DNA of 32,013 bases from Rhodoferax sp. (GTDB taxonomy: Bacteria > Pseudomonadota > Gammaproteobacteria > Burkholderiales > Burkholderiaceae_C), in NCBI RefSeq assembly GCF_018063565.1, contig NZ_JAGPBB010000047.1:1-32013 (forward strand), written 5' to 3'. Below the pieces are notes generated by a model, which was given only the letters and a program-made list of their open reading frames with translations, ran no database searches and was not told the origin of the DNA. Numbering within the stretch: the stretch's first letter is position 1; every line of letters starts with the position of its first letter. Both the position numbers and the translations under genes were made by a program. Below are positions 8,794 through 29,331 of this stretch, piece after piece.

Positions 8794-8827
8794 GCTTCAC
8801 CTGACTGTCACATTGGCCTCGTACATT
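8794..8827 (+). promoter_or_regulatory. Pho box and -10 of cpdB
   Basis: GCTTCAC-CTGA-CTGTCAC at 8794-8811 has TCAC words exactly 11 bases apart; the second half matches the PhoB half-site in 6 of 7 positions. Ten bases later is TACATT (8822-8827), a 4-of-6 -10 match. The layout is nearly the same as the phoD promoter: TTCAC, four bases, CTGTCACAT, then TACA at the same distance. Confidence 0.6.
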
Positions 8828-8856
8828 GCGCTGGCCCTTTACTATCAGGAGTTCTT

Positions 8857-10911
8857 GTGGTTCCCTTTGCCAAATTCAGATTTCCACCCCGGTCGCTCAT
8901 GACGAGTTCTCTTACCGCCGCATTCATTGCCAGCCTGGCTGCCTGCGGTGGATCAGACGGTGATGCCGCGCTGCCCGAATCAGCCACCGCCCAGTTGGCG
9001 GTTTTGGAGACCTCCGACCTGCACGCCACCGTGGTCAGCTACGACTACTTCAAGCTGGCCGAAGACAAAAGTGTGGGCCTGGAGCGCACCGCCACGCTGA
9101 TCAAGCAGGCCCGCGTTGACTTTCCCAACAACCTGTTGATCGACAACGGCGACACCATTCAGGGCAGCGCCTTGGCCGACTACCAGGCACTGGTCAGCCC
9201 GCTGGCCTGCAGCCAGAAGCTGGCCACCTACAAGGCCATGGATACCATTGGCTTTGATGCTGGCACGCTGGGCAACCACGAGTTCAATTACGGCCTGCCT
9301 TTCCTGTCGCAAGTGACCGGCACCAAGTTCAATGTCGATGGCATGGCCGCTGTGACCAGTCAACCCACCTGCACCGGCCCGGCTTTCCCGCTCGTGCTGG
9401 CCAACGTCAGCAGCAAAAAAGACGGAGCGCCGCTGTACAAGCCCTACACCATCATCAGCAAGAAGGTCAGCGCCAAAGACAAGGACGGCAAAACCATTGA
9501 GAGCACCGTCAAGGTGGCGATCATCGGCTTTGCGCCCCCGCCCATTCTGCTGTGGGACAAGCGCTGGCTTGATGGCAAGGTCGATGTGCAGGGCGTGGTC
9601 GAGGCCGCCACCAAATATGTGCCCATGGCGCGTGCCGAAGGGGCCGACATTGTGATTGCCGCCTCACACGGCGGCTGGGACACCAGTGCCTACACCGCAA
9701 CCATGGAAAACGCCAACTACCACCTGGCCAAAGTGGCTGGCATTGATGGCATTTTGATGGGCCATTCACACGCCGAATTTCCCAACGCAGCCTGCACCAC
9801 GGCCGCCTGCAGCGCCACCGGTGTAGACAAGGTGAAGGGCACCTTCCACGGCGTGCCCGCTGTCATGCCCAGTTACTGGGGCAAGGCCATCGGCGTGATC
9901 AACTACAACCTGGTGGTGAAAAACGGCAAGTGGGCCATCGACACCAGCAAAACCGCCGTCAGCGTGCGCAAGGCCTTGCTCGATGCCGCGGCCAAAACCT
10001 ATGTGGCAGTGGACCCAACCATTGCAGCGGCGATCAAGACCGAGCATGAGGCCGCCATTGCCTACGTGAAAACACCCATCGGCCAGTCAGACTTTGCGCT
10101 GTCCAGCTACTTTGCCGACATTGGTGATGTGACTGCCATCCAGGTGGTCAACGCCGCACAGGCCGACTATGTGGCCAGGTATGTGGCTGCCAACATGCCG
10201 CAGTACAAAGACCTGCCCGTGCTGTCGGTCAGCGCGCCGTTCAAGAGCGGTTTTGCCGGTGGCACCGATTTCACCGACGTGAAGCAGGGCGCGATTGCCA
10301 TCAACAACGCTGCTGATCTGTACCTGTACCCCAACACGGTGTACGCGGTGAAGGTCACGGGCGCTGGCATCAAGACCTGGCTGGAAAAGGCTGCCGAACG
10401 GTTCAACCAGATCGACTCCACCCTGACCACGGCGCAGGCGCTGGTGTCCACCTTCCCCGGCTACAACTTTGACATGTTCACCTCGGCCGACGTGAGCTAT
10501 GAAATTGATGTGACGCAAGCCAAGGGTAGCCGCATCAAAAACCTGAACTACAAGGGGGCACCCATCAGCACCACGGCCGAGTTCATCATTGCCACCAACA
10601 ACTACCGCGCCACCAGCGGCACGCAGTTTGGCCTGACTGCTGCCAACACCATTTACGCATCGCCCGATGCCAACCGTGACGTGCTGATTGACTACATCAA
10701 AGCCCGCAAGAACCTGACGCTTGCCACCGATGGTTCGGCACGCAGCTGGCGTTTTACCAAGGTCACGACGGCCGGCCCGGTCACCTTCACCTCGGGCAGC
10801 GGCAAATTGGCAGTGGCGCAGACCGCCGGGTTCAGCAACATCAGCGTCGTCAGCGCGGATGATGGCAGTGGCAAAGGGCAGGGCGTGTACGCCATCGATC
10901 TGTCCAAATAG
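8857..10911 (+). CDS. cpdB: CpdB-like 2',3'-cyclic-nucleotide 2'-phosphodiesterase/3'-nucleotidase, lipoprotein
   Basis: The predicted 684-residue two-domain enzyme would release nucleosides and phosphate from cyclic and 3'-nucleotides outside the inner membrane. The N-terminal metallophosphoesterase domain shows ETSDLHATVVSYDYF, IDNGDTIQGS, GNHEFNYG, SHGGWD and GHSH. The C-terminal 5'-nucleotidase domain includes LYLYPNTVYAVKVTG and the YNFDMFTSADVSYEID substrate-pocket region. I chose GTG 8857 because AGGAG lies five bases upstream. It also gives a proper signal peptide with positively charged residues (KFRFPPRS) before the hydrophobic core and a LAAC lipobox; a start at ATG 8899 would lack the charged region. 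It is monocistronic, with a terminator after the stop and a Pho-type promoter before it. E. coli CpdB is soluble and periplasmic, so lipidation is a variation. Confidence 0.88.
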   Translation: MVPFAKFRFPPRSLMTSSLTAAFIASLAACGGSDGDAALPESATAQLAVLETSDLHATVVSYDYFKLAEDKSVGLERTATLIKQARVDFPNNLLIDNGDTIQGSALADYQALVSPLACSQKLATYKAMDTIGFDAGTLGNHEFNYGLPFLSQVTGTKFNVDGMAAVTSQPTCTGPAFPLVLANVSSKKDGAPLYKPYTIISKKVSAKDKDGKTIESTVKVAIIGFAPPPILLWDKRWLDGKVDVQGVVEAATKYVPMARAEGADIVIAASHGGWDTSAYTATMENANYHLAKVAGIDGILMGHSHAEFPNAACTTAACSATGVDKVKGTFHGVPAVMPSYWGKAIGVINYNLVVKNGKWAIDTSKTAVSVRKALLDAAAKTYVAVDPTIAAAIKTEHEAAIAYVKTPIGQSDFALSSYFADIGDVTAIQVVNAAQADYVARYVAANMPQYKDLPVLSVSAPFKSGFAGGTDFTDVKQGAIAINNAADLYLYPNTVYAVKVTGAGIKTWLEKAAERFNQIDSTLTTAQALVSTFPGYNFDMFTSADVSYEIDVTQAKGSRIKNLNYKGAPISTTAEFIIATNNYRATSGTQFGLTAANTIYASPDANRDVLIDYIKARKNLTLATDGSARSWRFTKVTTAGPVTFTSGSGKLAVAQTAGFSNISVVSADDGSGKGQGVYAIDLSK

Positions 10912-11269: not shown

Positions 11270-13135
11270 TCAGGGCAGGGTGACACCCGCCGTGGTGACG
11301 ACCTTCTGATTCGAGTACTCGCTTCGGGCGGGACGTGTTATTGATCCTTTGGCCAGAACATAGTCCACAAAACTTTGCGTGTACAGCAAGTAGGTGTTGA
11401 CGTAACGTCCACTCGAATACACCGTACCCAGCGCGGTGTAGCCATCTTTGCCGCTGGCAATGAAGTCGTTGGTTACCAGCACGTAGGTCTTCAAGGGGTC
11501 AATGGCACTCCAGGCACCCGTGGTTTTGTTGCGGACTTGCACTTGGGTCAGTCGCTGGCCCTTTGATTTGCTCATGTCGACGTCCCAGCGCAGTCCGGCG
11601 GCATAGGGATATGAACCCGTGCCCCCCGACGGATTGGCGACAAAATTGTTCACCCCGTCCTCAATGGCGGCAAGAACCTCGGTGCCGGTCATCTCAAGTT
11701 CGACCAGCACGTTGGTGAACGGCAGCAAGGTGAAAGCGTTATTCATGTTCAAGCTGCCGGCAGCCAGCGGCACCCGCAAGCCGCCCGCGTTTTGCAAGGA
11801 AAAGTCAGCCCGCTTGGCGGCAAACAGGAACGCTTCTGCCACCACCTGCGCGATGTCGCTGCCTTTGGCCAGCGTATTGGCAGCCTCGCAACCGGCCACA
11901 CCCGCACTGCGGTTGGTGCTTTCACCAGGCACACGGACCAGACACAAGGCTTCGCTCGCTGCACCGATGGGCTTGGCTTTTTCTGCGCTTACCTGGTCTG
12001 AATAGGTTTTGAGGGCGCTCAGCGCCGCGGCATCAGGCGTCAGCACTTTGACCGCTGGCTGGCTGGCAGCCAGTTTGGCTACCAGAGTGGTACGGTCAGC
12101 CTCGGCCAGGGTTTGCCAGGCACCAGCGGCGTCCTTGCGTTTGAAGCTGTCGCCTATCAGCAGTGTGGATTGCCCGGTGCAACTCGCCACTGCACCGGCC
12201 TCGTTGAACTTGACGTTCATCAGGCCGGTGGCTTTGGCGTACTCCCAGGCCTGGCCGATACAGACGGTCTCACCGGATTTGTTTTTGGTGACCGTCGGAT
12301 AGCTGCCTGAACCGCTCAGGCCAAGTGGGCTCACGTTACCCAGCAAGGTGTGTGAGTCGCCTCCAATGATCACGTCCACGTCGGTCAGCTTGGCTGCCAG
12401 CGCCTTGTCAGCCTCATAGCCCTGGTGGGTAATGGCCACAATGTGCCGCACACCCAGTGCCTTGAGTTCGTCAATGGTTTTCTGTGCCGATGTGGCCTCA
12501 TCACTGAAGACGGTGGTGTCGAGTGGCCGAGAGGAATTGACGGTTTTGCCCGCCACTGTGATGCCGATCAGGCCCACCTTCACGCCATCCACCTCCTGGA
12601 TCAGGTAAGGTTTCAACACGTTGCCCGCCAGCGGTGTGCCTGCCTTGGGTGTAATGTTGCTTGAAATCACTGGTGTTTTACACGTCGATTTGCCAAGTTC
12701 GTCAATAAAACCCTTGAATACTGCATCGCTGTCGTCAAACTCATGGTTACCTGGCGCAAAAGCGTCAAAACAGACCGTGTTCATCATCATGGCATCCGCT
12801 GCACCCTTAAAAAAGGTGTAGTACAGCGTGCCGGTAAGAGCGTCACCGGCGTGAATTTTCAGCAGGTTTTTCTGGCTGGCCAGCGACTTGAACATGGCGG
12901 TCTGGCGGGCAAAACCACCCAGCTCAACTTGCGTCGCCACGCCATCGAGCGTGAGTTCGGTGTTGGCAAAGGCATCGAGCTGTGAATGGTGGTCGTTGAT
13001 GTGGGCGACATTGAGTTCCAGCGGCTTGAACGTCGGTGCGTCATCGTCACCGCCACCACATGCGCTCAGCAGCACACCAACAGAGATTAGGAAACAGGCG
13101 CTCTTCGCGGCACGGGAGATGACGTTGAGTTTCAT
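11270..13135 (-). CDS. UshA/5'-nucleotidase-family metallophosphatase, lipoprotein
   Basis: The 621-residue protein starts with a lipoprotein signal peptide (lipobox LSAC) followed by GGGDDD. The metallophosphoesterase domain shows HINDHHSQLD, IHAGDALTG, GNHEFDDSD, THQGYEAD and GGDSHTLLG. The C-terminal 5'-nucleotidase domain includes FSLQNAGGLRVPL, FTLLPFTNVLVELEMTG and LVTNDFIASGKDGYT. It should hydrolyse nucleoside 5'-phosphates or nucleotide sugars outside the inner membrane. Together with CpdB it would let the cell strip phosphate from RNA breakdown products. No Shine-Dalgarno sequence is visible before the ATG. A weak Pho-like repeat lies about 50 bases upstream, shared with the divergent phoD regulatory region. 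Confidence 0.85.
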   Translation of the reverse strand: MKLNVISRAAKSACFLISVGVLLSACGGGDDDAPTFKPLELNVAHINDHHSQLDAFANTELTLDGVATQVELGGFARQTAMFKSLASQKNLLKIHAGDALTGTLYYTFFKGAADAMMMNTVCFDAFAPGNHEFDDSDAVFKGFIDELGKSTCKTPVISSNITPKAGTPLAGNVLKPYLIQEVDGVKVGLIGITVAGKTVNSSRPLDTTVFSDEATSAQKTIDELKALGVRHIVAITHQGYEADKALAAKLTDVDVIIGGDSHTLLGNVSPLGLSGSGSYPTVTKNKSGETVCIGQAWEYAKATGLMNVKFNEAGAVASCTGQSTLLIGDSFKRKDAAGAWQTLAEADRTTLVAKLAASQPAVKVLTPDAAALSALKTYSDQVSAEKAKPIGAASEALCLVRVPGESTNRSAGVAGCEAANTLAKGSDIAQVVAEAFLFAAKRADFSLQNAGGLRVPLAAGSLNMNNAFTLLPFTNVLVELEMTGTEVLAAIEDGVNNFVANPSGGTGSYPYAAGLRWDVDMSKSKGQRLTQVQVRNKTTGAWSAIDPLKTYVLVTNDFIASGKDGYTALGTVYSSGRYVNTYLLYTQSFVDYVLAKGSITRPARSEYSNQKVVTTAGVTLP

Positions 13136-13185: not shown

Positions 13186-13203
13186 ATGACGCCCGTGTGT
13201 CAC
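13186..13203 (-). promoter_or_regulatory. Weak Pho-like repeat upstream of the ushA-like gene
   Basis: On the minus strand this reads GTGACAC-ACGG-GCGTCAT, matching the PhoB half-site in 4 of 7 and 5 of 7 positions with 11-base spacing. No good -10 is found at the usual distance. It sits 25 bases from the phoD box, so PhoB bound there could affect both genes. Confidence 0.3.
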
Positions 13204-13228
13204 AAGTGCCCTGCAAGGTGTATTGCCG

Positions 13229-13262
13229 GTTTCACGCCGCTGTCACATGCAGCGTCTACAAC
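13229..13262 (+). promoter_or_regulatory. Pho box and -10 of phoD
   Basis: GTTTCAC-GCCG-CTGTCAC at 13229-13246 has TCAC words 11 bases apart; the second half matches in 6 of 7 positions. TACAAC (13257-13262) follows after exactly 10 bases, a 4-of-6 -10 match. The phoD ATG lies 33 bases beyond it. Confidence 0.6.
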
Positions 13263-13295
13263 CAGACTCCTCACTTCACTTTTCAGGAATCTGGC

Positions 13296-14996
13296 ATGCA
13301 GACCCCTTCCCGTCGCAACTTTGTCATTCAACTGGCGGCATTGACCGCTGCGACCAGCACTGGCATGGTGCTGTCTGGCTGCGGCGGCGCGGACGACCCT
13401 GACCCACCTCGTTTTGACTATGGAGTGGCCAGTGGCGACCCGTTGGCTGACCGGGTAATTTTGTGGACCCATGCGCAGTTTGCGGGCTTGTCCGACGATG
13501 TTGCGTTGACCTGGGAGGTCGCAAGTGATGCGGCATTTGCCTCGCTGATAGTGTCTGGCAACGCCCGTGCCACTGCGGCGGCGGGTCACACCGTTAAAGT
13601 CGACGCCAGCGGTCTGAGTGCCGGTAAGGACTATTGCTTCCGCTTCCGCTGGGACCAGCATAGCTCACCGGTCGGTAAAACCCGCACCTTGCCTGCGGCT
13701 GGTGCGACCAGTTTGGCGCTGGCGGTGCTGACGTGCTCCAACTATCCGGCGGGTTACTTTCACGTCTATGCCGAGGCAGCCAAGTCGGCAGCCAAATACG
13801 CCGTGCATCTGGGCGACTTTATCTATGAATACGCGGCCGATGGCTATGCCAGTGCCGATGCTGCTGCGCTGGGCCGGGTCTCGCAACCGGCCACAGAATG
13901 TATCAAACTTGACGATTACCGCAAGCGCTACGCCCAGTACCGCTCGGACCCTGATAGCAAGACTTTCCATGCCACGATGCCGGTGATCGCTGTCTGGGAT
14001 GACCATGAGGCTGCCAACGACAGTTTTGACAACGGGGCTGAAAACCACACCGAGGGCTCGGAGGGTCGCTTTACCGATCGTCGTGCCGCCGCCGTGCAAG
14101 CTTGGCATGAATGGCTGCCCGTGCGCGCACCAGATCCCAAAGATCTGCTCAAGATCTACCGCAGTTTTGATTTTGGCGGTCTGGTGGCCATGCACATGCT
14201 GGAAACACGGCTGATTGGTCGCGACAAACAAATCACATTCACCGATCTGCTCAATCCGGCGACTGCCGGTGCCGCCATGGCAACATTGGCCTCACCCACG
14301 CGCAGCATGATGGGTGCTGAACAACTGGCATGGCTGCAGGGACAGTTGGCTGCTTCAAAAGCAACTTGGCAAGTGTTGGGGCAGCAGGTATTGATGGCAC
14401 GAATGGAGTTCCCGGTGAGTGTGCTGACCGCCCTCAATCCGGACAACGCCGGGGCCGATGCGGTGGCAGCCGGCCAAAAGGCGATCAATGATTACCTGAC
14501 CGCCAAAGCGACTGCGGCTCAAGCGCCAGCCTTGCTAACAGAGACCCAGAAAGCCTTGCTGAACCCTGCCATTAACCCACAACTTGGTTACAACCTGGAT
14601 GCGTGGGATGGTTACCCTGTAGAGCGCGAAATTGTGCTGGGTACAGCCAAACAGTTAGGCAAGAAACTGGTGGTGTTGGCGGGAGACACCCACAACGCCT
14701 GGGCAAGCCAGCTCACGTTGGTGAACGGTACGGTCGTAGGCTACGAGTTTGCGACCACAAGTGTGAGTTCTCCGGGCTTTGAAGAATATCTGCCAACACT
14801 GACGCCGGACCAGTCCAAGGCGATTTTCTTGGGGGTTGTGGACGACTTGAAATATGCCGACACCTATCGAAGGGGCTTCATGCTGATGCAGTTCACTGCA
14901 TCCGAAGCCAAGGGTACTTGGCATTTCGTCAGTACCGTCAAGTCGCGCAGCTACACCGTGGATGCCAGCGCAACGCTTGCTTACTCGCCGTCATAG
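13296..14996 (+). CDS. phoD: PhoD-family alkaline phosphatase/phosphodiesterase, Tat-exported lipoprotein
   Basis: The predicted protein is 566 residues. Its N-terminus has a twin-arginine motif (SRRNF, residues 5-9), a hydrophobic segment and an LSGC lipobox with Cys29, so it should be folded before export and then lipid-anchored. A fibronectin-like PhoD N-terminal domain (FDYGVASGDPLADRVILWT) precedes the metallophosphatase domain. That domain shows VLTCSNYPAGYF, VHLGDFIYEY, VWDDHEAAND and the late GDTHNAW motif. PhoD enzymes use Ca and Fe to cleave phosphomonoesters and diesters, including lipid headgroups and teichoic acids. ATG 13296 is chosen because AGGA lies eight bases upstream and the signal peptide begins there. 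Its stop codon overlaps the phoX1 Pho box. Confidence 0.9.
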   Translation: MQTPSRRNFVIQLAALTAATSTGMVLSGCGGADDPDPPRFDYGVASGDPLADRVILWTHAQFAGLSDDVALTWEVASDAAFASLIVSGNARATAAAGHTVKVDASGLSAGKDYCFRFRWDQHSSPVGKTRTLPAAGATSLALAVLTCSNYPAGYFHVYAEAAKSAAKYAVHLGDFIYEYAADGYASADAAALGRVSQPATECIKLDDYRKRYAQYRSDPDSKTFHATMPVIAVWDDHEAANDSFDNGAENHTEGSEGRFTDRRAAAVQAWHEWLPVRAPDPKDLLKIYRSFDFGGLVAMHMLETRLIGRDKQITFTDLLNPATAGAAMATLASPTRSMMGAEQLAWLQGQLAASKATWQVLGQQVLMARMEFPVSVLTALNPDNAGADAVAAGQKAINDYLTAKATAAQAPALLTETQKALLNPAINPQLGYNLDAWDGYPVEREIVLGTAKQLGKKLVVLAGDTHNAWASQLTLVNGTVVGYEFATTSVSSPGFEEYLPTLTPDQSKAIFLGVVDDLKYADTYRRGFMLMQFTASEAKGTWHFVSTVKSRSYTVDASATLAYSPS

Positions 14997-15021
14997 GGTT
15001 GTCACGCGAGCCAGCCATCAT
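14988..15021 (+). promoter_or_regulatory. Pho box and -10 of phoX1, overlapping the phoD stop codon
   Basis: CCGTCAT-AGGG-TTGTCAC at 14988-15005: halves match the PhoB half-site in 6 of 7 and 5 of 7 positions with 11-base spacing. CATCAT (15016-15021) follows after exactly 10 bases, a 4-of-6 -10 match. The first half-site lies within the last phoD codons and its stop, so phoX1 can be switched on separately from phoD. Confidence 0.55.
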
Positions 15022-15059: not shown

Positions 15060-16973
15060 ATGAAAACCACGCCTTTGATTGTCCTTAAATTGTCAGCCTT
15101 GAGCATTGCTGTCGGCATGACGCTCGCCGCTTGCGGCGGCAATGACGACCCGGCAAGCTTGACTTCGGTCGAGTTTACCGATACGCCAGTGCCCAGCAGC
15201 GATGCGGATATGTTGAAGACACAATCGTCGTCCAAGGCGATTTTTAAGTACTCGGATGGCACCAGCAAAGAATATCCACTGAGCTACACCAGCCTGTTCA
15301 AGAACACCGATGCAATCAGCACGGTGGGCAGCACCAAGTACGCCGCAGCGCAACTGTTTGACGTCAATATGAGTCCCATCATTGACCCCAACGGCGACCC
15401 GGTGGTGGCAGAAACGGCCGACTCCAACAGCCTGTTGAAGGTGGGCAGCAAACTGTTCCTGGTCAATCATTGGGAGTACGACAACATTCTGGCCAATGGC
15501 CAACAAGCTTACAAGGTGGCCAACTGGTACAGCCGCATGCCCATGAGCATGAGTCTGTCAGAGATTTCCCAGGGCAGTGACGGCAAGCTCAGTGTCAAAA
15601 GTCAAAAACCAGTGGACTTCTCCAGCGTGAACGGCGGCTGGATCTTCTGCTTTGGTTCACAAACGCCCTGGAACACTCACCTCGGGGGCGAAGAGGACTA
15701 TGACCTTTACTATGTGCCCGGTGAAAAGGCCTACACCACCACGACGGCCGGACTGAAGGCCATGACCGAGGTGTATTTCAAGAACACCAAAACGGCCAAT
15801 CCTTACCACTATGGTTACGCCACCGAAGTGGCGGTCAAGGAAGATGGGACCTACGGCGTCACCAAGCACTATGAAATGGGTCGCGGAACCTGGGAAATGG
15901 CCATCTACGCCAAGGACGGCAAGACCGCCTTTTTTGGTGACGATGGCTCTTATTCCGGCATGTTCATGTTTGTGGGTAACAAGGCCAACGACCCCAAGGC
16001 CGGCGGCAGCATTTATGCGGCCAAATGGACCCAAACCTCGGCAGACGGTAGCAATGCCGACACGACGGCCAACATCACATGGATCAAACTCGGCAGTGCC
16101 ACATACGACGAAGTCAAGGCGCTGGTTGACAGCGGTCTAACGATTGGCGACATTTTCGAAACCTCGCTGACCGCCAAAGACGGCTTTGTGCCTACCCGCG
16201 CTGGCTCGGCCGAGACCATCTGGCTCAAACTCAAGCCCGGCATGGAAAAGGCAGCGGCATACCTCGAAACACGTCGCTACGCTGCCTACTTGGGTGCAAC
16301 CACCGAATTCACCAAAGGCGAGGGTGTGGCCATCAACCACGCTGACAAGAAGATGTACTACGCTTTGAGCTATATCCAGGGCTCGATGCTCGCAAATGAC
16401 GGCGGGCCGGTCGACCATATCAAGGTTAAAGGCAACAATGCTGGTGCCACGATGACATTTGACATGGCAAGTGCCGTCAAAGACACAGCCGGTGGCGCTA
16501 TTGCCTCCGACTACGTGCCGACCAAAGGCCACATCGAAGACAAGCTGCTGGGTCGTCCGATCACCGCAGACGCCAAAGGCAACACTGCCGATCCGGCCTA
16601 TACCGCCAACACCGACAACGTGTTCTTCTCGGAGAAGCTGCGTACCCTGTTCATTGGTGAAGACTCTGGCACACACGTCAACAACTTTGTCTGGGCCTAC
16701 AACGTTGATACCAAAAAGCTCAGCCGGGTTTTGAGCGTTGCTGCCGGGGCCGAGTCCACCGGCCTGCAAGTCGCGGAGGATATGAACGGTTATGCCTACA
16801 TCATGAGCAATAACCAGCATCAAGGCGACTGGCTGAGCAGCCAGCCGGCGGCACTGACCACAAGTCTGAAAGCCAAGGCGCAAGAGCTGTATGGCGCAAA
16901 CAAATATGGCACCCTGAACTATTACCTGCAAGCCGATGTGGGTTACATCGGTGGCATGCCAGCGGTCAGGTAA
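15060..16973 (+). CDS. PhoX-family (DUF839) lipoprotein, copy 1
   Basis: A 637-residue protein with a Sec-type lipoprotein signal (lipobox LAAC, Cys25). The body is PhoX-like: CFGSQTPWNTHLGGEEDYD (197-215) corresponds to the PhoX TPWGTxLxCEE signature, with later VFFSEKLRTLFIGEDSGTH, FVWAYNVDT and GLQVAEDMNGYAYI segments. The cysteine before the EE pair, an iron ligand in Pseudomonas PhoX as I recall, is G210 here. A cysteine conserved with copy 2 sits at 197. There is no twin-arginine motif, unlike classical PhoX. Phosphatase activity is therefore plausible but unproven. AGGAG lies nine bases before the ATG. A hairpin region separates it from the diheme cytochrome gene downstream, and copy 2 lies at 21331-23223 on the other strand. 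Confidence 0.8.
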   Translation: MKTTPLIVLKLSALSIAVGMTLAACGGNDDPASLTSVEFTDTPVPSSDADMLKTQSSSKAIFKYSDGTSKEYPLSYTSLFKNTDAISTVGSTKYAAAQLFDVNMSPIIDPNGDPVVAETADSNSLLKVGSKLFLVNHWEYDNILANGQQAYKVANWYSRMPMSMSLSEISQGSDGKLSVKSQKPVDFSSVNGGWIFCFGSQTPWNTHLGGEEDYDLYYVPGEKAYTTTTAGLKAMTEVYFKNTKTANPYHYGYATEVAVKEDGTYGVTKHYEMGRGTWEMAIYAKDGKTAFFGDDGSYSGMFMFVGNKANDPKAGGSIYAAKWTQTSADGSNADTTANITWIKLGSATYDEVKALVDSGLTIGDIFETSLTAKDGFVPTRAGSAETIWLKLKPGMEKAAAYLETRRYAAYLGATTEFTKGEGVAINHADKKMYYALSYIQGSMLANDGGPVDHIKVKGNNAGATMTFDMASAVKDTAGGAIASDYVPTKGHIEDKLLGRPITADAKGNTADPAYTANTDNVFFSEKLRTLFIGEDSGTHVNNFVWAYNVDTKKLSRVLSVAAGAESTGLQVAEDMNGYAYIMSNNQHQGDWLSSQPAALTTSLKAKAQELYGANKYGTLNYYLQADVGYIGGMPAVR

Positions 16974-16979
16974 AAAACC

Positions 16980-17007
16980 GTGCGGCAAGAGCCGCACTTT
17001 CTTGTTT
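16980..17007 (+). terminator. Intrinsic terminator-like hairpin after phoX1
   Basis: GTGCGGC (16980-16986) and GCCGCAC (16991-16997) form a perfect seven-base GC stem with an AAGA loop. It is followed by TTTCTTGTTT and lies six bases past the stop. Confidence 0.7.
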
Positions 17008-17010
17008 CCA

Positions 17011-17098
17011 GGGTGGCTGCTCGGGCCACCCTGTGCTGTGAAAGCCGTCTCGCCAACAAAAAGGCGGGTCGACTTTCACAGGGTCTTGGTGACCCGCC
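17011..17098 (+). promoter_or_regulatory. Leader of cyt1 with overlapping alternative hairpins
   Basis: Three further inverted repeats lie between the phoX1 terminator and cyt1. They are GGGTGGC/GCCACCC (17011-17017, 17025-17031); a 19-base imperfect pair beginning CTGTGAAAG (17036-17054 with 17063-17081); and GGCGGGTC/GACCCGCC (17063-17070 with 17091-17098). The second and third share 17063-17070, so only one can form at a time, as in attenuator-like leaders. No Pho box is seen here, so cyt1 probably depends on read-through from phoX1. Confidence 0.5.
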
Positions 17099-17114
17099 CT
17101 GATCGTTCGAAAAC

Positions 17115-19151
17115 ATGAATCACATTTTCAGTTCCTGGCTGCTTCCCGCGGGCACCATGGTGTGCAGCCTGCCCTTCTTTTTTGTCGCTTGTGGCGGCGG
17201 CAGTGGTGGCACAGCGAGTGCGCCTGTTGTACCCGCTGCGGTGGCCAATGTCGCACTGATCGGCGACACCATCGACCGGGGTACCTTCGCCAACCCGCAC
17301 GCACATATCCCGGCACAGTGTTACATCGAAACCAGCCACGGTGCACAAAATGCCTGTTTGTTCTGCCACACCGATGGGGTTTCAGATCTGAAGCTGGGCA
17401 ATAACAATCCGATGGCCGGCGGCAACCCGAATGTTGGCAACCTGCAGGCAAGTTATGCGTTTGGCGTGTTGCGTTACCCCTACGTGGTCAATTCAAGCAT
17501 CATGCCCTGGGTCAACACCTTGCAACCCGGGATATTGCGCGCGGCTGTTGAAGCAGCGGGCCATAAGCCTGGCACTTGGGACATGCAAAGTTATATTCGC
17601 CAGGACAACTGGCGCGCGGCGTTTGCCCAGCGCCCGGGCTCGGTGAAGGATTGGGATACAAAAGTCAACTCACCCTGGCGCTTGTTCCCGGCTTTGTCCC
17701 CAGACGATCTGCCGGCCAAAACGGATGGTTTTTTGCGCAGCACGGTGGAGCAGCGTGGCTACTTTAACGACGGGCTGGGCTGGAATACGGGCTGGCGTTC
17801 GGTCAACTTCATGCCCTACGGCATCTTTACGCCCCTGGCCGGCAGCGTCTCTGGCATTTACATCCGTTTGCCTGACACCTTTATGAAGAACTCGGCTGGT
17901 GAGTTTGACCTGGGCGCCTACAAGGCCAACCTGGACCGGGTGGAGCGCAACATTCAGGACCGACTGACCGGTGAAACCCGTTACAGCGGTGCGGCATCAT
18001 CGGTGCAGATTGTCCGGGGTCAATACCCGATCGGAACAGAGTTCGCCCATCCTCTGCACTATGTGGACGTTGCTGCTGACGGGCAAAACAGCAGCGTCAG
18101 TTCGTACCCCGGCAGTCGTGCGCGGAGGGTGAAAGAGATTCGCTGGATGGTCAAATCCCAGGACTGGTACCCTGATGAATTTGGCATGTCTCTCAAGGAC
18201 GAAGGCGCGCCGGTTTACGCCAGCCGCGACCAGGGCTGGATAGAAAACGGAGTGGGATGGATTTTGGGCGGCTGGATAGAGAACGCCAACGGCGACTTGC
18301 GGCCACAAACGCCCTCAGAACTGACCCAGTGTGTCGGTTGCCACTCGGGCAATGTGCGTCAGTCGGACGTGGGTCAACATGCCACCTACACCTCAGGGGT
18401 GGGCAACACCATCGATTCCACCTGGGCCATGGGACGCAAGTTCGCCGGCGACGCGGGCTGGCAAGAGATGAATTACCTGGGTTACCGGGCCAACCTGCAG
18501 GCAGGTGAGGCTGCAACCCCAGGAGATCTGACGGTGGCAGAACCGGTCAATCGCCAGCTCAACAGGGGCGAATTCCGTGTTTTCCTGGACTATGTGGTGG
18601 GTGCATCGCTGTATGGCGACATGCCCGATACGGTGGAGGGGTATTTGGCCAGCCAAATAACCCGCGCCCGGGGGTACGAAGCTGACTGGCCGGAACTGAA
18701 ATCTGCCGTGGCGCAGCATGATGCGGCTGGGATAAAAGCCGTGCAGGCGCAGCGGCTGAGTTTGATGCGAGCATTTACCGCACGCGGCGCGCATCTGAAT
18801 GAGGCTGGCACGATTCGGCCCGAGCTGTTTTTGCCGACTCGCCTCAATGCACTGGCCGGTGCATCGCGCTATCGTCAGGTGGTGGTCACGCAACGCTACG
18901 ACTATGGCAAGGACGTGTTCCCCGAGACGCCGTTCACACTGCGCTACTTTCGCACAGCGGATGTTACCTACACCCACCAGGACGGCTCAGCTTACAAGCT
19001 GGGCGAAGTCATCACTGATCGACCCATCAACAACACCGTGGGTGACTTTGCGTATGGCATGGGCACCGAGCCAACACTGATCGATGAGGCTTTGCCGTTT
19101 TTGCAGGGGGGCACTTTTTTGCGCAACTATGTACCATTGCTCAAACCCTAG
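17115..19151 (+). CDS. Diheme c-type cytochrome lipoprotein of unknown function, copy 1
   Basis: A 678-residue protein with a lipoprotein signal (lipobox FVAC, Cys26). Two heme-c attachment motifs are present: CLFCH at 81-85, inside a conserved IPAQCYIETSHGAQNAC segment, and CVGCH near 406-410. More than 300 residues separate them. That middle region has highly conserved stretches shared with copy 2, such as FMPYGIFTPL, SVSGIYIRLP, TEFAHPLHYVDVAADG and RVKEIRWM. The architecture fits no cytochrome peroxidase or thiosulfate enzyme I know. It is linked to the PhoX-family gene upstream, as in the inverted copy. No Shine-Dalgarno sequence is seen before the ATG; a second in-frame ATG at 17157 is possible. 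It converges with copy 2, leaving 31 bases. Confidence 0.75.
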   Translation: MNHIFSSWLLPAGTMVCSLPFFFVACGGGSGGTASAPVVPAAVANVALIGDTIDRGTFANPHAHIPAQCYIETSHGAQNACLFCHTDGVSDLKLGNNNPMAGGNPNVGNLQASYAFGVLRYPYVVNSSIMPWVNTLQPGILRAAVEAAGHKPGTWDMQSYIRQDNWRAAFAQRPGSVKDWDTKVNSPWRLFPALSPDDLPAKTDGFLRSTVEQRGYFNDGLGWNTGWRSVNFMPYGIFTPLAGSVSGIYIRLPDTFMKNSAGEFDLGAYKANLDRVERNIQDRLTGETRYSGAASSVQIVRGQYPIGTEFAHPLHYVDVAADGQNSSVSSYPGSRARRVKEIRWMVKSQDWYPDEFGMSLKDEGAPVYASRDQGWIENGVGWILGGWIENANGDLRPQTPSELTQCVGCHSGNVRQSDVGQHATYTSGVGNTIDSTWAMGRKFAGDAGWQEMNYLGYRANLQAGEAATPGDLTVAEPVNRQLNRGEFRVFLDYVVGASLYGDMPDTVEGYLASQITRARGYEADWPELKSAVAQHDAAGIKAVQAQRLSLMRAFTARGAHLNEAGTIRPELFLPTRLNALAGASRYRQVVVTQRYDYGKDVFPETPFTLRYFRTADVTYTHQDGSAYKLGEVITDRPINNTVGDFAYGMGTEPTLIDEALPFLQGGTFLRNYVPLLKP

Positions 19152-19182
19152 GCTCTGGCTTGGTGGCGCCTTGCACGGCTTT

Positions 19183-21222
19183 TCATTTGTTCTCAAACCT
19201 TAGTGGCGTGCTTAACAGCGGCACATACCTGGGGTTGTAGGTGCCACCCTGTGCAAAGTCGCTTTTCTCGTCGATCAGAGTAGGCACGTTGCCCACCAAA
19301 TAAATGTCAGCCGCCGGGTTGCTGCGGTGCACCGAGCGGTCGGTGATGACTTCGCCTTGGTGATAGGTTTGCCCGTCCAGGTGTGTAAAGGAGTTCAGGC
19401 TGTCGCGCAGGTAGGTGAAGTTGACCGGAGTCGTGGGAAACACGTCCTTGCCCAGGTGATATCGCTGGCTCACCACCACCTGACGGTAGCGCGATGCTCC
19501 GGCCAGTGCATCAGTCATTGGCGGGTACAACAGGGCACCGCGCACCCGGCCATGCGCATTCAGATGCTCGCCACGCGCCGTCAGGTCGCGCATCAGGCGC
19601 TGGCGCAGCGTTTGCGACTCGGTAAACGCTTGTGGGCTGCGGGTATTGATGGTGGGCCAATCCGCTGAGTAGCCGCGCTGCGTGCGGATGGTTTGCGCCA
19701 GATACCGCTCAATGGCAGCCGGCATGTCACCATACAGACTGGCACCCACCACGTTGTCCAGAAAGTAACGCAATTCGCCCTTGCCTTCGCCCCGATTGAA
19801 TGGGTCGCCCATTTTGGCCTGCCCTGGGGTGGCCTGAGCGCTGGTATTGGCAACAGCCTGATAGCCGAGATAGTCCATCTCTCTCCAGCCAGCTGAACCT
19901 GGCCACTTGCGGGCCATGGCCCAAGTGCTGTCCACCGTGTTTCCAGTCCCCGAGGTGAAGCTTGGGGACTGTTCCGTGCGCACGACGCCACTGTGGCAGC
20001 CAATACACTGGGTTAACTCCTGCGGGGTTTGTGGGCGCAAGCTGCCGAGTGCGTCTTCAATATAGCCTGCCAGGTACCAGCCGACCCCGTTGTCTACCCA
20101 GCCCTGGGTGGCATGGCCATAGACGGGCAAACCTTCTTCTTTCTCACCGGGGCGGAAGTCTGCATGGTGAAAGTCCTTCCATTTCATCATGTAGCGAATT
20201 TCCTTCACGCGCTGCGCGCGGGTGCCCGGAAATCGGCTGATGTCGGGGCGGCTACCGTCAGCAGCCACGTCGACATAGTGAAGTGGGTGGGCAAATTCGG
20301 TGCCGACCGGATATTCACCACGGCGTAGCGGTACCTTGTGAGCTTGGCCAGTGAACCGTTGCCCGTCTGCCGGGGTCAAGCGGTCCTGAATAGCGCGCTC
20401 CAGCAGGTCCAAGTTGCGCTGGTACACCCCCAGGTTGAACTGCCCGCTGGCATCACGCATAAAGGCTTGCGGCAGGCGAATGTAAATGCCCGAGACACTG
20501 CCGGTCATGGGCGTGAAGATGCCGTAAGGCATGAAATTGACCGCTCGCCAGCCGGTCAGCCAACCGGCATCGTCCTTGAAATAACCGCGCGAGGCCTGCG
20601 GGCTGCGCACAAAGCCGTCAGCCTGCGCGGGCAGGTCAGCCGGAGCCAGGCCGGGAAACAATCGCATCGGATGGTTGACCGCACTGTCCCAGTCTTTGGC
20701 GCTGCCCGGGCGCTGGGAAAAAGCGGCGCTCCAGTTGTCCTGGCGCACATAGCTGGCCACCTCGGAGGCTCCCCAAGCATGTGGGTCTTGCCCCAGCGCC
20801 CGCACGGCGGCCAACAGTTTTTCTGGCTTCAGGGTGTTTTCCCAGGGGTTGACCACTGAGAGTGGCTCAAAGGGCCGGTGCGGCGCAAAGCTGTATTCAA
20901 GTTGCAGATTGCCCAGGCGGGGCTCAGCCCCCGCCTGTGGCAGGTTGTTGCCCAGGCCCAGCTCGTAAACGCCGTTGGTGTGGCAGAACTGGCAGGCGTT
21001 TTGCGCACCGTGCGAGGTTTCGATGTAGCACTGCGCCGGAATGTGCGAATACGGATTGTCGAATTGCGCCGGATTGAAAAAGTCGCCCACCAAAGCGTGC
21101 GCCGAGCCGCCTGTGTTGCCTTTGGCACCTGGCAAGGCAGTCACGCATGCGGTTAGCACCACTGCTGCGCTGGCGACACCCAGAATTGGCCAGACCAGCG
21201 GCTTACTGTTTGATTGTTTCAC
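19183..21222 (-). CDS. Diheme c-type cytochrome lipoprotein of unknown function, copy 2
   Basis: The 679-residue paralogue of the gene at 17115-19151 is roughly half identical by eye along its length. It has a lipoprotein signal with lipobox LTAC (Cys26). Heme motifs are CQFCH at 77-81 and CIGCH near residue 405, at matching positions. The start is a GTG (21220-21222) with AGAGGA about seven bases upstream. It lies downstream of phoX copy 2 in the same direction, separated by a terminator hairpin. The shared QCYIETSHGAQNAC and TEFAHPLHYVDVAADG blocks mark a distinct family. Heme maturation requires Sec export, consistent with the signal peptide. The electron partner and substrate are unknown. 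Confidence 0.75.
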   Translation of the reverse strand: MKQSNSKPLVWPILGVASAAVVLTACVTALPGAKGNTGGSAHALVGDFFNPAQFDNPYSHIPAQCYIETSHGAQNACQFCHTNGVYELGLGNNLPQAGAEPRLGNLQLEYSFAPHRPFEPLSVVNPWENTLKPEKLLAAVRALGQDPHAWGASEVASYVRQDNWSAAFSQRPGSAKDWDSAVNHPMRLFPGLAPADLPAQADGFVRSPQASRGYFKDDAGWLTGWRAVNFMPYGIFTPMTGSVSGIYIRLPQAFMRDASGQFNLGVYQRNLDLLERAIQDRLTPADGQRFTGQAHKVPLRRGEYPVGTEFAHPLHYVDVAADGSRPDISRFPGTRAQRVKEIRYMMKWKDFHHADFRPGEKEEGLPVYGHATQGWVDNGVGWYLAGYIEDALGSLRPQTPQELTQCIGCHSGVVRTEQSPSFTSGTGNTVDSTWAMARKWPGSAGWREMDYLGYQAVANTSAQATPGQAKMGDPFNRGEGKGELRYFLDNVVGASLYGDMPAAIERYLAQTIRTQRGYSADWPTINTRSPQAFTESQTLRQRLMRDLTARGEHLNAHGRVRGALLYPPMTDALAGASRYRQVVVSQRYHLGKDVFPTTPVNFTYLRDSLNSFTHLDGQTYHQGEVITDRSVHRSNPAADIYLVGNVPTLIDEKSDFAQGGTYNPRYVPLLSTPLRFENK

Positions 21223-21274
21223 CGTCTTATCCTCTTGCTTGAATACTTCAAATTAAGGAGCTCCCTCCCCATAT

Positions 21275-21310
21275 AGAAAAAGGGCTAGCCTCTGAAAAGA
21301 CTAGCCCTTT
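21275..21310 (-). terminator. Rho-independent terminator after phoX2
   Basis: On the minus strand AAAGGGCTAG pairs with CTAGCCCTTT (10-base stem, 12-base loop; 21279-21288 with 21301-21310). It is followed by a T-rich run, and begins about 20 bases past the phoX2 stop. It lies between phoX2 and cyt2, mirroring the hairpin between phoX1 and cyt1. Confidence 0.75.
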
Positions 21311-21330
21311 GGGCTGGTAGCTGTTAACGC

Positions 21331-23223
21331 TTAGCGTATGGCAGGCATGCCACCCAGGTAACCCACCGGCGCGTTGAACTTGTCAATCTTGGCCGACAGC
21401 GCCGCCTTCAGGTCGGCCGGCACTGATGACGGCAGGTCACCCCAATGCTGGTTGTTGGCCATGATGTAGGCGTGACCGTTCAGGTTGTCCAGCACCTGCA
21501 GACCCGTGTTTTCAGCACCTGCGGCTGAGCTCAGGATGCGGGTGAGTTTTTTGGTGTCAACGTTGTAGGCCCACAGGTAATTGTTGACGTGCTCCCCCGA
21601 GTCTTCGCCAATGAACAGCGTGCGCATCTTTTCCGAGAAAAACACGTTGTCGGTGTTGGCAACTTTGCCCTCAGCGGCGGTGTTGCCCTTGGCATCCGGC
21701 GCTTTGAGCGGCTCACCCAGCAATGCGGACTCCACATACATGTTCACCGCCACATAGTTAGACGAAATGGCCGCGCCCTTGGCGTCCATCTGGCCGCCCT
21801 TCATGTCCAGGCTATAGGTCGCGCCAGCGCTGTTTTTGGCCAGGCGAATGTGATCAACCGGCTCGCCGGTCATGCTGGTCATGCTGTCGCGAATGGACGA
21901 AATGGCCATGTACAGGCGCTTGTCTTTGTCGTTGACGGCCACGCCTTCCATTTTGGTGAACTCGGTGGTGGCACCCATCAAGGCGGCCATGCGGCGGGTT
22001 TCGAGGAAGGCAGCCGCCTTTTCCTGGCCTGGGTTAACTTTCAGGCACTCGTCAGCGGTGGAGCCGCTGCGCACCCGGGTGTAACCGGCTTCGCAGGCGC
22101 CGTTTTTGGGTTGCACAGCCGAGAAAATCTTGTAGAAAGTACTGCTGTCAGCCAGCGCCTTGATCTCGGTGCTGTTGCCGTGGCCCAGCTTGACCCACTT
22201 GAGGTTGGCGCGGCCACCGTCTTTGTCAGAGGTTTGCTCCCACTTGGCGGCGTAGATGGTGCCAGCGTCGAGCTTGCCCGGCTGGTCGGCAACAAACATG
22301 GCCATCAGACCGTGGGTTCCGTCGTCACCAAAGTACACCGTTTTGCTGTCGGGCATGATCTTGCCCATTTCCCAAGTGCCACGGCCCATGGCGTAGTGCT
22401 TGGTGACCTGGGTGCTGCCATCGGGCTTGACCGCCACTTCGTTCAAATAGCCGTAGTGGTAGCGGTTAGCCAGCTTTTCGCCCTTGAAATACAGGTCGGT
22501 CATGGCTTGCAGACCGGCGGAGGTCTTGGTGTGATCCTTGGTCAGCGGGTTGAACTGCAGGTCGTAATCTTCTTCAGACCCCAGATGGGTGTTCCAGGGG
22601 GTTTGTGAGCCAAAGCACGGAATCCACAAGCCGCCCACGGCAGAAAAATCGATCGGGCGCTGTTTGAGCAGACTCATCTGGCCAGAGTCATTCTGCTTGA
22701 GCTCAGACAACAGCATGCCCATGGGCGCGCGGGCATGCCAGTCTTTCACCTTGGTACCCACCGAGCCATCCGACAACAACCAGTCGTATTCAAGGTGCGT
22801 CACCATGAACAGCTTGTCGCCCACTTGCAGCAGGCTATTGGCATCAGGGGTCTCGGCCACCAGAGGTTTGCCCTTGGGGTCCATCAGGGGTTCCATCTTG
22901 TAGTTGTAGAGCTGACCGGCCGGGTGCATCTTGCCGCCGACTTCGCTGGTGGCATCTTTCAACGAGAACAAGGTGTTGTAGCTCAAGGGATACGTCTTGA
23001 CGCTGCCGTCCACGTAAGTCACCTTGACCGACGAGTCTGTGTAGGTCTTGCTCATTTTGTCGATTTCGGTCGCCACAGGCGCAGCGGTTTCGGTGAAATC
23101 AACACGCTTCACGGCAGCCGTACCGGCACCGCCGCCGGTGGCACAGCCACCCAACATCAGCGCGGTGGCAGTCGCCGCGGCGCTCAAGGAAAAATAAGCT
23201 TGACGAGAGAAAAACATAAACAC
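21331..23223 (-). CDS. PhoX-family (DUF839) lipoprotein, copy 2
   Basis: The 630-residue paralogue of the protein at 15060-16973. The signal peptide ends in LGGC (Cys27) followed by ATGGG. The PhoX-type signature reads CFGSQTPWNTHLGSEEDYD (203-221); the position before EE, cysteine in classical PhoX, is S216. Later matches include VFFSEKMRTLFIGEDSGEH, YLWAYNVDTKKLTRIL and NTGLQVLDNLNGHAYI. It has no twin-arginine motif. The ATG has an excellent AGGAG five bases upstream and a Pho-type promoter with a near-consensus -10. With the cyt2 gene after it, this forms the mirror image of the phoX1-cyt1 pair. Enzyme activity is inferred from family only. Confidence 0.8.
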   Translation of the reverse strand: MFMFFSRQAYFSLSAAATATALMLGGCATGGGAGTAAVKRVDFTETAAPVATEIDKMSKTYTDSSVKVTYVDGSVKTYPLSYNTLFSLKDATSEVGGKMHPAGQLYNYKMEPLMDPKGKPLVAETPDANSLLQVGDKLFMVTHLEYDWLLSDGSVGTKVKDWHARAPMGMLLSELKQNDSGQMSLLKQRPIDFSAVGGLWIPCFGSQTPWNTHLGSEEDYDLQFNPLTKDHTKTSAGLQAMTDLYFKGEKLANRYHYGYLNEVAVKPDGSTQVTKHYAMGRGTWEMGKIMPDSKTVYFGDDGTHGLMAMFVADQPGKLDAGTIYAAKWEQTSDKDGGRANLKWVKLGHGNSTEIKALADSSTFYKIFSAVQPKNGACEAGYTRVRSGSTADECLKVNPGQEKAAAFLETRRMAALMGATTEFTKMEGVAVNDKDKRLYMAISSIRDSMTSMTGEPVDHIRLAKNSAGATYSLDMKGGQMDAKGAAISSNYVAVNMYVESALLGEPLKAPDAKGNTAAEGKVANTDNVFFSEKMRTLFIGEDSGEHVNNYLWAYNVDTKKLTRILSSAAGAENTGLQVLDNLNGHAYIMANNQHWGDLPSSVPADLKAALSAKIDKFNAPVGYLGGMPAIR

Positions 23224-23243: not shown

Positions 23244-23277
23244 ATTATTTCGTTGTCATGTGTCAATTTTTTGACAA
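23244..23277 (-). promoter_or_regulatory. Pho box and -10 of phoX2
   Basis: On the minus strand this reads TTGTCAA-AAAA-TTGACAC (23277-23260), with 11-base spacing and the AAAA spacer typical of strong Pho boxes. AATAAT (23249-23244) follows after exactly 10 bases, a 5-of-6 -10 match. The core is also an inverted repeat, TGTCAA-AAA-TTGACA. The phoX2 ATG follows about 20 bases after the -10. Confidence 0.6.
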
Positions 23278-27532: not shown

Positions 27533-27561
27533 CATTGGGTGTTCCAGGTGATCAGTTTCAT
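27533..27561 (-). pseudogene. EEP gene remnant: start codon plus about nine codons
   Basis: The ATG (27559-27561) overlaps the ugpE TGA and is followed by MKLITWNTQ, identical to the start of the EEP protein at 23385-24272. The frame then runs into unrelated sequence that encodes no EEP motif. The breakpoint near 27533 marks the edge of the duplication. Confidence 0.85.
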
Positions 27562-27813
27562 TTGATGCCAGCGCGCATGAAGTTTTGGACAAATTGACGT
27601 TGAAACAGCAAGAATGCCAGCAGCAGGGGCGCTGAACTCATCAATGTGGCGGCAGTGATGATCGACCAGTCTATGCCCTGGTCCACCGCTGAAAAGATTT
27701 GTAGCCCTACCGTGAGCGGGCGCGCCTGCTGGCTGTTGGTCACAAGCAGTGGCCACAGGAAATTGTTCCAGTGAAAGCTCACCGACACCAGCGCAAACGC
27801 CGTGTAGGTTGGT
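27533..27813. repeat. Direct duplication, right copy (EEP 5' end plus ugpE 3' end)
   Basis: Homologous to 24244-24687, allowing for the 158-base insertion in the left copy. This copy belongs to the intact ugpE. The right-hand breakpoint is sharp: ATTGGGT is shared, and sequence to its left belongs to the region after the peptidase stop. Confidence 0.8.
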
Positions 27814-28403
27814 TTGGCCAGTGGCACATAAACGCGCCACAGGGTTTGCAGCGCGCTGGCACCCTCTGCCCGGGCCGCATCGTCCAGCTCTTTGGGAATG
27901 CCCATGAAGGTCTGGCGCAGCAAAAATATGGCAAATGCCGAGGCAAAGTACGGCAGGCCAATCGCCCACAGCGAGTCCACCAGGCCAAGCTGCGCCATGG
28001 TCTTGTAGTTTTCCACCACCAGAATGTCGGGCATCACCATCAGTTGCACCAGCACCAGTGCAAACATCAGGTTGCGGCCACGAAACCGGTAGCGTGCAAA
28101 AGCATAAGCCGCCAGCGTGGCCAGTACCAGTTGCGCGGCCAAAATCATGCCGACCAGCAGCGTGGTGTTGAAAAAGTAGCGCGCAAAAGGGGCTGCCGCC
28201 CAGGCACGCCTGAAGTTGTCCAGCGTCAGCGGCGCGTCCAGCGCAAAGCGGGTGGCGTATTCGGCGGGGTGAAACGCAGTCCACACCGCATAGACCAGTG
28301 GCAGCACCCACAGCAGCGCCAGCAGCCAGGCGGCCAGGGTGTCGAGCCAGCCGGACTCGTTAAACAGCAGTCGCTGGTGGGGTGGGTGAATCAGCCTGCT
28401 CAC
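27558..28403 (-). CDS. ugpE: ABC transporter permease, UgpE/MalG type
   Basis: A 281-residue inner-membrane permease of the MalFG family with about six membrane spans. The EAA loop reads ELDDAARAEGASALQTLWRVYVPLAKP near residue 185, the contact site for the ATPase. It ends in FMRAGIK. It overlaps the upstream permease gene by four bases (ATGA), showing translational coupling. With UgpC, UgpB and UgpA it would import glycerol-3-phosphate or related glycerophosphodiesters, and the phosphate-scavenging context supports that substrate. A sugar substrate cannot be excluded from permease sequence alone. Its original downstream partner, the EEP gene, has been separated from it by the insertion at 24688-27532. 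Confidence 0.85.
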   Translation of the reverse strand: MSRLIHPPHQRLLFNESGWLDTLAAWLLALLWVLPLVYAVWTAFHPAEYATRFALDAPLTLDNFRRAWAAAPFARYFFNTTLLVGMILAAQLVLATLAAYAFARYRFRGRNLMFALVLVQLMVMPDILVVENYKTMAQLGLVDSLWAIGLPYFASAFAIFLLRQTFMGIPKELDDAARAEGASALQTLWRVYVPLAKPTYTAFALVSVSFHWNNFLWPLLVTNSQQARPLTVGLQIFSAVDQGIDWSIITAATLMSSAPLLLAFLLFQRQFVQNFMRAGIK

Positions 28404-29278: not shown

Positions 29279-29331
29279 GGTGGAACGGGCGATATCGGCC
29301 GCAGTCTGGCGAATGTGCAGCCGTACTTCGC

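Follow-up and report, generated by a model that had tools for sequence, protein, structure and literature searches.

Two phosphatase-cytochrome gene pairs in Rhodoferax

The window analyzed here is a whole stretch of 32,013 nucleotides from Rhodoferax sp. (assembly GCF_018063565.1, contig NZ_JAGPBB010000047.1, positions 1 to 32,013, forward strand). It contains two gene pairs, each consisting of a gene for a PhoX-family phosphatase followed by a gene for a large diheme cytochrome:

15060..16973, plus strand: phoX1, 637 residues, exported PhoX-family phosphatase, predicted Sec lipoprotein without a twin Arg (Pfam ID PF05787, 59.9 bits)
17115..19151, plus strand: cyt1, 678 residues, predicted lipoprotein diheme cytochrome, with CxxCH motifs at residues 81-85 (17355-17369) and 406-410 (18330-18344)
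19183..21222, minus strand: cyt2, 679 residues from a GTG start, predicted lipoprotein diheme cytochrome, with CxxCH motifs at residues 77-81 and 406-410
21331..23223, minus strand: phoX2, 630 residues from GTG, second PhoX-family predicted lipoprotein (PF05787, 66.9 bits)

The pairs lie tail to tail, with 31 bases (19152-19182) between the stops of cyt1 and cyt2; coordinates and frames agree with a preliminary description of the window in this layout and in the two CxxCH motifs per cytochrome. Its estimate that both partners are duplicated and about half identical holds as well, with 331 of 613 residues (54%) identical between the PhoX proteins and 371 of 656 (57%) between the cytochromes. 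Both PhoX proteins exceed the PF05787 cut-off of 24 bits. The cytochromes, each with a lipobox-like signal, reach no Pfam or NCBIfam model at its cut-off. An alternative start of phoX2, the ATG at 23217 two codons in, has a better-spaced AGGAG and is probably the true one.

Distribution of the cytochrome and its linkage to PhoX

A scan of an 84,980-species collection yields 49 cytochrome loci. It used two peptide patterns from two sequences and so finds close relatives only. Many of the records are metagenome-assembled genomes, whose names may be wrong, and L004, a duplicate of L021 (genome G022), is dropped from the counts. In 46 of the 49 loci the cytochrome gene is immediately preceded by a phoX gene in the same orientation. 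Of these, 45 are tabulated and one is L034, where the cytochrome frame is over-extended; the 46 include L045, whose PhoX is interrupted by a run of N and reads as two parts. Among the hosts are the cultured Rhodovulum euryhalinum and Halomonas gemina. The other three are L014 and L022, with no PhoX on the stretch, and L035, which meets a contig end.

At the level of the phylum, in a set of 398 genomes that includes that of the window, seven others match the cytochrome profile, and six of these have a PhoX-like gene next upstream; the exception, G542, has none on that contig. All four genomes in question (those of L014, L022, and L035, and G542) encode a close PhoX elsewhere. No match is found in 398 other genomes of the order. 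Among 58 relatives, 34 of them from the same genus, three match: G022, with a full-length cytochrome and PhoX upstream; G019, which is considered below; and G009, where a 20.5-bit match to the first 45 cytochrome residues only is probably spurious. Three Pseudoalteromonas plasmids carry a cytochrome relative of 26% identity, in each case with PhoX beside it. The gene order is thus kept among distant relatives (26 to 30% identity), in the six phylum-search genomes and in all three plasmids.

A third member of the operon is not apparent: gene clusters other than those of the pair are limited to at most 7 of 50 loci (one being the duplicate), and a Pfam search of 150 of the 157 near-flank proteins, the seven longest being excluded, shows no family with more than five members among the matches listed (25 of 118 families).

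Judged by its occurrence in these scans, searches, and plasmids, the pair is rare and patchy, yet tightly kept. This bears out the earlier proposal that the pair was kept together over long divergence. The observation named there as its refutation, a cytochrome mostly without PhoX, has come out the opposite way, since of the five genomes without adjacency four have a close PhoX elsewhere and one (G019) does not. By all these signs, the phosphatase and the cytochrome are a real, long-kept pair and a conserved predicted operon.

Pho boxes upstream of phoX

Pho boxes were sought with the pattern TGTCATNNNNNTGTCA in the 200 bases upstream of starts picked by a scoring rule. Of 47 paired phoX entries, 46 were scored, the remaining one having too little upstream sequence. 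A site with at most one mismatch is found before 14 of the 46 (shuffled sequences: mean 0.19, maximum 2), and one with at most two mismatches before 28 (mean 2.61, maximum 7). These figures supersede an initial run on 27 regions with lipobox-based starts, which gave 10 and 18. The corresponding counts for 20 unpaired phoX-like genes are 5 and 13 (shuffles, 0.11 and 1.20). Before the cytochrome genes, where the region scanned is largely the end of phoX, none of 49 has a site at either threshold (shuffles, 0.00 and 1.33). The lack of a site there, together with phoX-cytochrome gaps of at most 199 bases, argues for an operon.

The window as a whole contains 22 sites with up to two mismatches against 8.3 expected, a number reached in none of 100 shuffles. 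A stricter 18-base Pho pattern gives 5 sites against 2.4 expected (11 of 100 shuffles), which is not significant. Two sites lie upstream of the pairs:

14988..15005, plus strand: Pho-box-like site that overlaps the end of phoD and lies 71 bases before the start of phoX1; it departs from the shorter pattern at one of its 12 fixed letters and from the longer pattern at three positions
23261..23276, minus strand: degenerate Pho-box-like site upstream of phoX2, with two mismatches

Pho boxes are therefore strongly enriched upstream of phoX across the relatives, and the sites in the window are degenerate. The pair looks like a two-gene, Pho-regulated operon that would be switched on by phosphate starvation.

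PhoX active site, export, and anchoring

The family profile matches the structure of classic PhoX from Pseudomonas fluorescens (PDB ID 3zwu) with an E value of 2.5e-9 over part of its length. Residues C179, E193/E194, E273, D292, R385, and E387 of that structure correspond to C197, E211/E212, E279, D295, K419, and E421 of phoX1; the R385 and E387 assignments depend on a weak second alignment stretch and on a multiple alignment that includes classic PhoX. What C179, E273, and E387 do in the classic enzyme was reportedly described by Yong et al. in 2014. Within the mappable part of the metal site, which does not include the N-terminal ligands, C197, E211/E212, E279, D295, and E421 show no variation in any of the 47 paired, 20 unpaired, and 8 distant paired PhoX proteins. 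A lysine (Lys419) takes the Arg385 position in 47 of 47, 19 of 20, and 8 of 8, respectively.

Regular expressions were used to call twin-Arg motifs, the mark of twin-arginine translocation (Tat), and lipid anchors. Both PhoX copies of the window have Sec/lipoprotein signals and not Tat signals. Tat export is usual for PhoX but is no defining trait of the family, the PhoX of Flavobacterium johnsoniae being a predicted lipoprotein as well. None of 55 paired PhoX proteins has a twin-Arg motif, save one borderline QRRK (L017), and the paired PhoX look Sec-exported. Among unpaired PhoX the motif occurs in 8 of 20, and an earlier-called frame of L108 also starts with one; at plasmid loci it occurs in 7 of 10, with none in the Priestia protein (L160) and the PhoX frame not captured in L151 and L152.

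The lipid anchor is shared by both members in 32 of the 55 pairs and absent from both in 16; 5 pairs are discordant and 2 uncallable, so that the anchor type agrees in 48 of 53 callable pairs. The “lipoprotein” call for the PhoX of L055 is probably wrong, and an earlier, poorer classifier gave 35 of 46 callable pairs as concordant. Since the soluble pairs fall, by eye, into about three tree groups, the effective number of cases is small.

The cytochrome family

Residues C69, C81xxCH85, H312, K340, K347, and C406xxCH410 are invariant across 18 aligned members of the cytochrome family, down to 26% identity. At an E value of 0.05 or less, the cytochrome P460 domain (Pfam ID PF16694) matches 34 of 46 members (best, 2.9e-4), and the same 46 show weak matches to a cbb3-type model (12) and a class I cytochrome c model (4); none matches CCP_MauG (PF03150) at that threshold. 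Profile comparison (hhalign) with seven P460 sequences gives an E value of 1.3e-4 and a probability of 53%. The lysine of P460 is its heme-crosslinking residue; a relaxed alignment of very low confidence puts H312 at that position, and a forced-global alignment fails. The second heme domain thus appears to resemble cytochrome P460 weakly. A sequence search of the PDB with the cytochrome profiles returns nothing meaningful.

Trees and origin of the pairs

Distances between cytochromes and between their PhoX partners correlate at 0.94 for 50 pairs and at 0.90 for the 42 core pairs taken separately (largest of 1,000 permutations, 0.16); shared vertical descent adds to this correlation. The two trees share 23 of 47 splits; of the well-supported ones, the PhoX tree reproduces 20 of the 28 from the cytochrome tree, and the cytochrome tree 18 of the 30 from the PhoX tree.

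The sister of pair 1 is, in the cytochrome and the PhoX tree alike, a pair from Rhodoferax Bin2_7 (L008), and that of pair 2 one from R. ferrireducens A7 (L021); none of the 49 loci has a second pair in the stretch examined. The window thus seems to juxtapose two old lineages. Local inverted duplication as the origin of the mirror layout is ruled out by the trees, each pair having its nearest relative elsewhere. This corrects the initial view of mirror-image paralogous modules, of which the paralogy and the tail-to-tail arrangement stand.

A tree of 85 PhoX sequences places six distant paired proteins outermost, then two more paired ones together with the unpaired L126, then unpaired ones, and then the core paired clade, which includes one unpaired protein (L107); several of these nodes are weak (0.53 to 0.68). 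Paired lineages bracket unpaired ones, and the simplest reading is therefore an ancestral operon from which the cytochrome would have been lost later.

PhoX relatives without the cytochrome

The PhoX profile matches 81 of the 398 genomes, most of them weakly (classic PhoX). One unpaired locus, L126, belongs to G542, which carries the cytochrome elsewhere. Other heme proteins lie near unpaired PhoX in 3 of 20 loci. In L109, from a genome of the order, a CCP_MauG gene (3878-5398) is convergent with a Tat-type PhoX-like gene (5401-7353) a few bases away. In L112 a Tat-type PhoX-like gene is followed, in the same orientation, by a gene for a DHOR diheme oxidoreductase (8046-10208). In L122 a NapB gene, part of a nitrate reductase, lies about 3.6 kb from the PhoX-like gene. 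L114 and L115 have one single-CxxCH frame each, with no Pfam match. These cases are too few to establish a rule.

Phosphorus-scavenging surroundings

By its predicted gene content, the window is a phosphorus-scavenging island. Besides the two pairs, it contains the following:

206-1962: OlsB-like acyltransferase and PF12850 metallophosphoesterase
6213-8549: protein combining a phytase-like part with a choice-of-anchor I beta-propeller region
8770..10911, plus strand: CpdB-like 2',3'-cyclic-nucleotide phosphodiesterase (NF006938, 599 bits, above cut-off)
11270..13135, minus strand: 5'-nucleotidase/NadN-like predicted lipoprotein (PF02872, PF00149; TIGR01530, 386 bits, under the cut-off of 436)
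13197..14996, plus strand: phoD-like phosphodiesterase/phosphatase directly upstream of phoX1 (PF09423, 347 bits)
23385-24272: Exo_endo_phos protein
24849-27506: aminopeptidase
27558..31685, minus strand: four-gene ATP-binding cassette (ABC) importer resembling ugpEABC of the glycerol-3-phosphate type (best NCBIfam matches UgpE, UgpA, UgpB, and UgpC, all under cut-off)

The OlsB-like ornithine acyltransferase beside the metallophosphoesterase suggests that phosphorus-free membrane lipid remodeling may be encoded in the same island; PlcP of Flavobacterium johnsoniae also belongs to PF12850 (PMC8115612). In L008, the closest relative of pair 1, PhoD likewise sits immediately upstream and a 5'-nucleotidase-type gene downstream. 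A plasmid of Comamonas odontotermitis (L155) has a comparable downstream order, in which PhoX is followed by a protein of the endonuclease/exonuclease/phosphatase family and by a four-gene ABC importer, other genes being interspersed. On that plasmid a Tat-type PhoX replaces the pair, no cytochrome is annotated, and the only frame with two CxxCH motifs is a thioredoxin.

Proposed role of the cytochrome

The sequences point to a near-exclusive, Pho-regulated phosphatase-cytochrome operon with products that are probably co-localized. The long-kept pairing and the Pho regulation suggest that the heme protein helps the phosphatase to work, and redox coupling of the cytochrome to the PhoX metal center is our best guess. 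The best-supported explanation, with about an even chance of being correct, is a redox role for the cytochrome as maturase or keeper of the PhoX Fe-Ca center. Each pair would be a two-gene operon under PhoB control. Its first gene would encode an exported PhoX-type alkaline phosphatase with an Fe-Ca active site, and its second a dedicated diheme c-type cytochrome of the same compartment, with both proteins lipid-anchored or both soluble. The cytochrome would assemble or keep the Fe(III)-oxo-Ca cofactor, or make a protein modification, and this work would take place outside the cytoplasm because PhoX appears to leave through Sec in the unfolded state and not, as by Tat, after folding. An unrelated cytochrome would thus do what the MauG-like partner is proposed to do for PhoX in Flavobacterium.

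Several observations weigh against this proposal. Close PhoX relatives without this cytochrome are common, and none of the 20 unpaired loci has a gene of its family in the stretch examined, some of these stretches being short. Some of the unpaired proteins are Sec-exported lipoproteins of a single family (f79). A plasmid of the Gram-positive Priestia megaterium (L160) encodes a PhoX-like protein that shares 43% identity with phoX1 and is apparently exported by Sec, and no cytochrome is annotated in its vicinity; the PhoX fold thus does not seem to need the cytochrome in general. In G019, a 71% complete genome without a PhoX match, the contig begins inside a partial cytochrome gene, which counts against strict co-occurrence unless the assembly lacks PhoX, and slightly weakens the statement that the cytochrome is always found with PhoX. 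The two cytochromes stay under the 27-bit cut-off of PF16694, with 19.7 bits for cyt1 and 14 bits for cyt2. Anchor types and Tat motifs follow lineages in clusters, so that their counts are not independent. Among 200 flanking genes drawn at random from 509, 5 and 17 have a Pho box with at most one and two mismatches, respectively, more than their own shuffles (0.50 and 6.00); these rates are 2.5% and 8.5%, compared with 30% and 61% for paired phoX. Finally, Trp278 of phoX1, beside an Fe ligand, is Trp in 47 of 47 core paired PhoX, and 18 of 20 unpaired ones have His or Arg there, but 6 of 8 distant paired PhoX also have His, which rules this residue out as a signature of pairing.

Among the alternatives, the one that survives best, if still an unlikely one, is that the cytochrome is a separate phosphorus-acquisition enzyme whose P460-like heme oxidizes a reduced phosphorus compound, an aminophosphonate, or the alcohol released by the phosphatase, PhoX merely sharing its operon and location. 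P460s are enzymes, and the weak P460 resemblance of the second CxxCH domain (34 of 46 members; hhalign, 53%) would fit, as would Pho regulation, which would suit an oxidase of reduced phosphorus too, and the cytochrome gene of G019, cut by the contig end, in a genome with no PhoX match. A free-standing enzyme would, however, be expected often without PhoX, and save for G019 a PhoX gene is adjacent or elsewhere in each case examined; moreover, the anchor type of the cytochrome follows that of PhoX.

The pair might itself be a redox enzyme, in which the PhoX-like protein oxidizes a substrate and the diheme cytochrome carries electrons to the cell surface. The double lipid anchor of 32 of 55 pairs and the origin of several hosts, by record title, from sulfidic caves or sulfur-oxidizer genera would agree with this. 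The retained hydrolase metal-site residues, the phosphate regulation, the phosphatase island in the window, and the lack of any other gene widely conserved in the flanks make it very unlikely. An electron-releasing oxidation as the main activity, one of the options of the preliminary description, fares no better: with the mapped metal-site residues kept and signs of Pho regulation in the operon, the pair more likely serves to release phosphate.

It is just as improbable that there is no functional interplay at all and that two Pho-regulon genes are simply co-inherited behind a common promoter. Both do look Pho-controlled, and unpaired PhoX relatives manage without the cytochrome; but the near-exclusive pairing down to 26% identity, the constant gene order, the matching anchors, and the absence of another widely conserved neighbor speak for more than this. 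Least probable is a gas or redox sensor that regulates the phosphatase: the P460/c'-beta fold, which the cytochrome weakly resembles, binds nitric oxide, but with its two hemes, its second conserved heme region, and its 678 residues the protein is large for a sensor, and nothing else indicates signaling.

A bolder form of the maturation proposal, which we regard as possible rather than probable, is that a heme protein unrelated to MauG is dedicated to assembling or protecting the Fe(III)-oxo-Ca center of a Sec-exported PhoX, or a modified residue in it (for example, Trp278 or Cys197), and represents a new class of phosphatase maturation. The operon would then be ancestral to this PhoX branch, and the cytochrome would have been lost where Tat export of the folded enzyme arose. 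If so, surface phosphate release would be gated by the heme redox state, and phosphorus supply would be tied to respiration or iron redox.

Comparison with known systems

With classic PhoX (P. fluorescens, 3zwu), the paired PhoX proteins share PF05787 and the C179, E273, D292, and E387 positions. They differ in their partial-length alignment, in the change of Arg385 to Lys, in the near-constant cytochrome partner gene, and in Sec export, classic PhoX being exported by Tat (PMC11098088). Lys at the Arg385 position is also found in Psip1 of marine picocyanobacteria, an active phosphatase with Fe and Ca dependence that is very distant from classic PhoX (PMC11098088). Psip1 lacks D292, whereas D295 is present here, and the part of that paper drawn on mentions no heme partner; this comparison is by description, not by sequence.

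On the cytochrome side, the second CxxCH region has weak similarity to P460/cytochrome c'-beta (PF16694), from which the family differs by scores under the Pfam cut-off, two hemes, a length of about 680 residues, and an N-terminal heme region with an extra invariant Cys69. MauG is the diheme partner that matures methylamine dehydrogenase. The present cytochrome is likewise a diheme partner of another protein, but has no detectable sequence relation to MauG or to the diheme cytochrome c peroxidases. No paper on this cytochrome family or on a proteobacterial PhoX-cytochrome operon is found in a literature search that left subscription journals mostly outside; a hydrazine-synthase paper proved irrelevant, its “alkaline phosphatase” being a PhoA reporter.

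The combination had been thought unfamiliar. This view has to be qualified, as phoX is already described in Flavobacterium in an operon with a MauG-like gene in all genomes (PMC8812569, where MauG is also discussed as a diheme partner that matures another protein). Flavobacterium phoX alone is inactive in Pseudomonas putida, for which the authors suggest incomplete expression or localization, or the need for a cofactor (PMC8812569). In F. johnsoniae, phoX (Fjoh_2478) and the MauG-like gene (Fjoh_2477; PF03150) are strongly induced by phosphate depletion (PMC8115612). There, too, a predicted lipoprotein PhoX, in that case of the outer membrane and distinct from the classic clades, shares an operon with a cytochrome (PMC8812569). 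The cytochrome described here does not belong to the family of that partner, as 0 of 46 members match PF03150; the host is of a different phylum, and the two systems are likened by description and not by sequence. The Flavobacterium phoX/MauG-like operon is thus the closest precedent, and the present cytochrome is not a MauG. A second system makes the open Flavobacterium suggestion directly testable, and a dedicated heme partner in two unrelated forms, MauG-like in Flavobacterium and the present family in Proteobacteria, would link phosphorus scavenging to the redox state.

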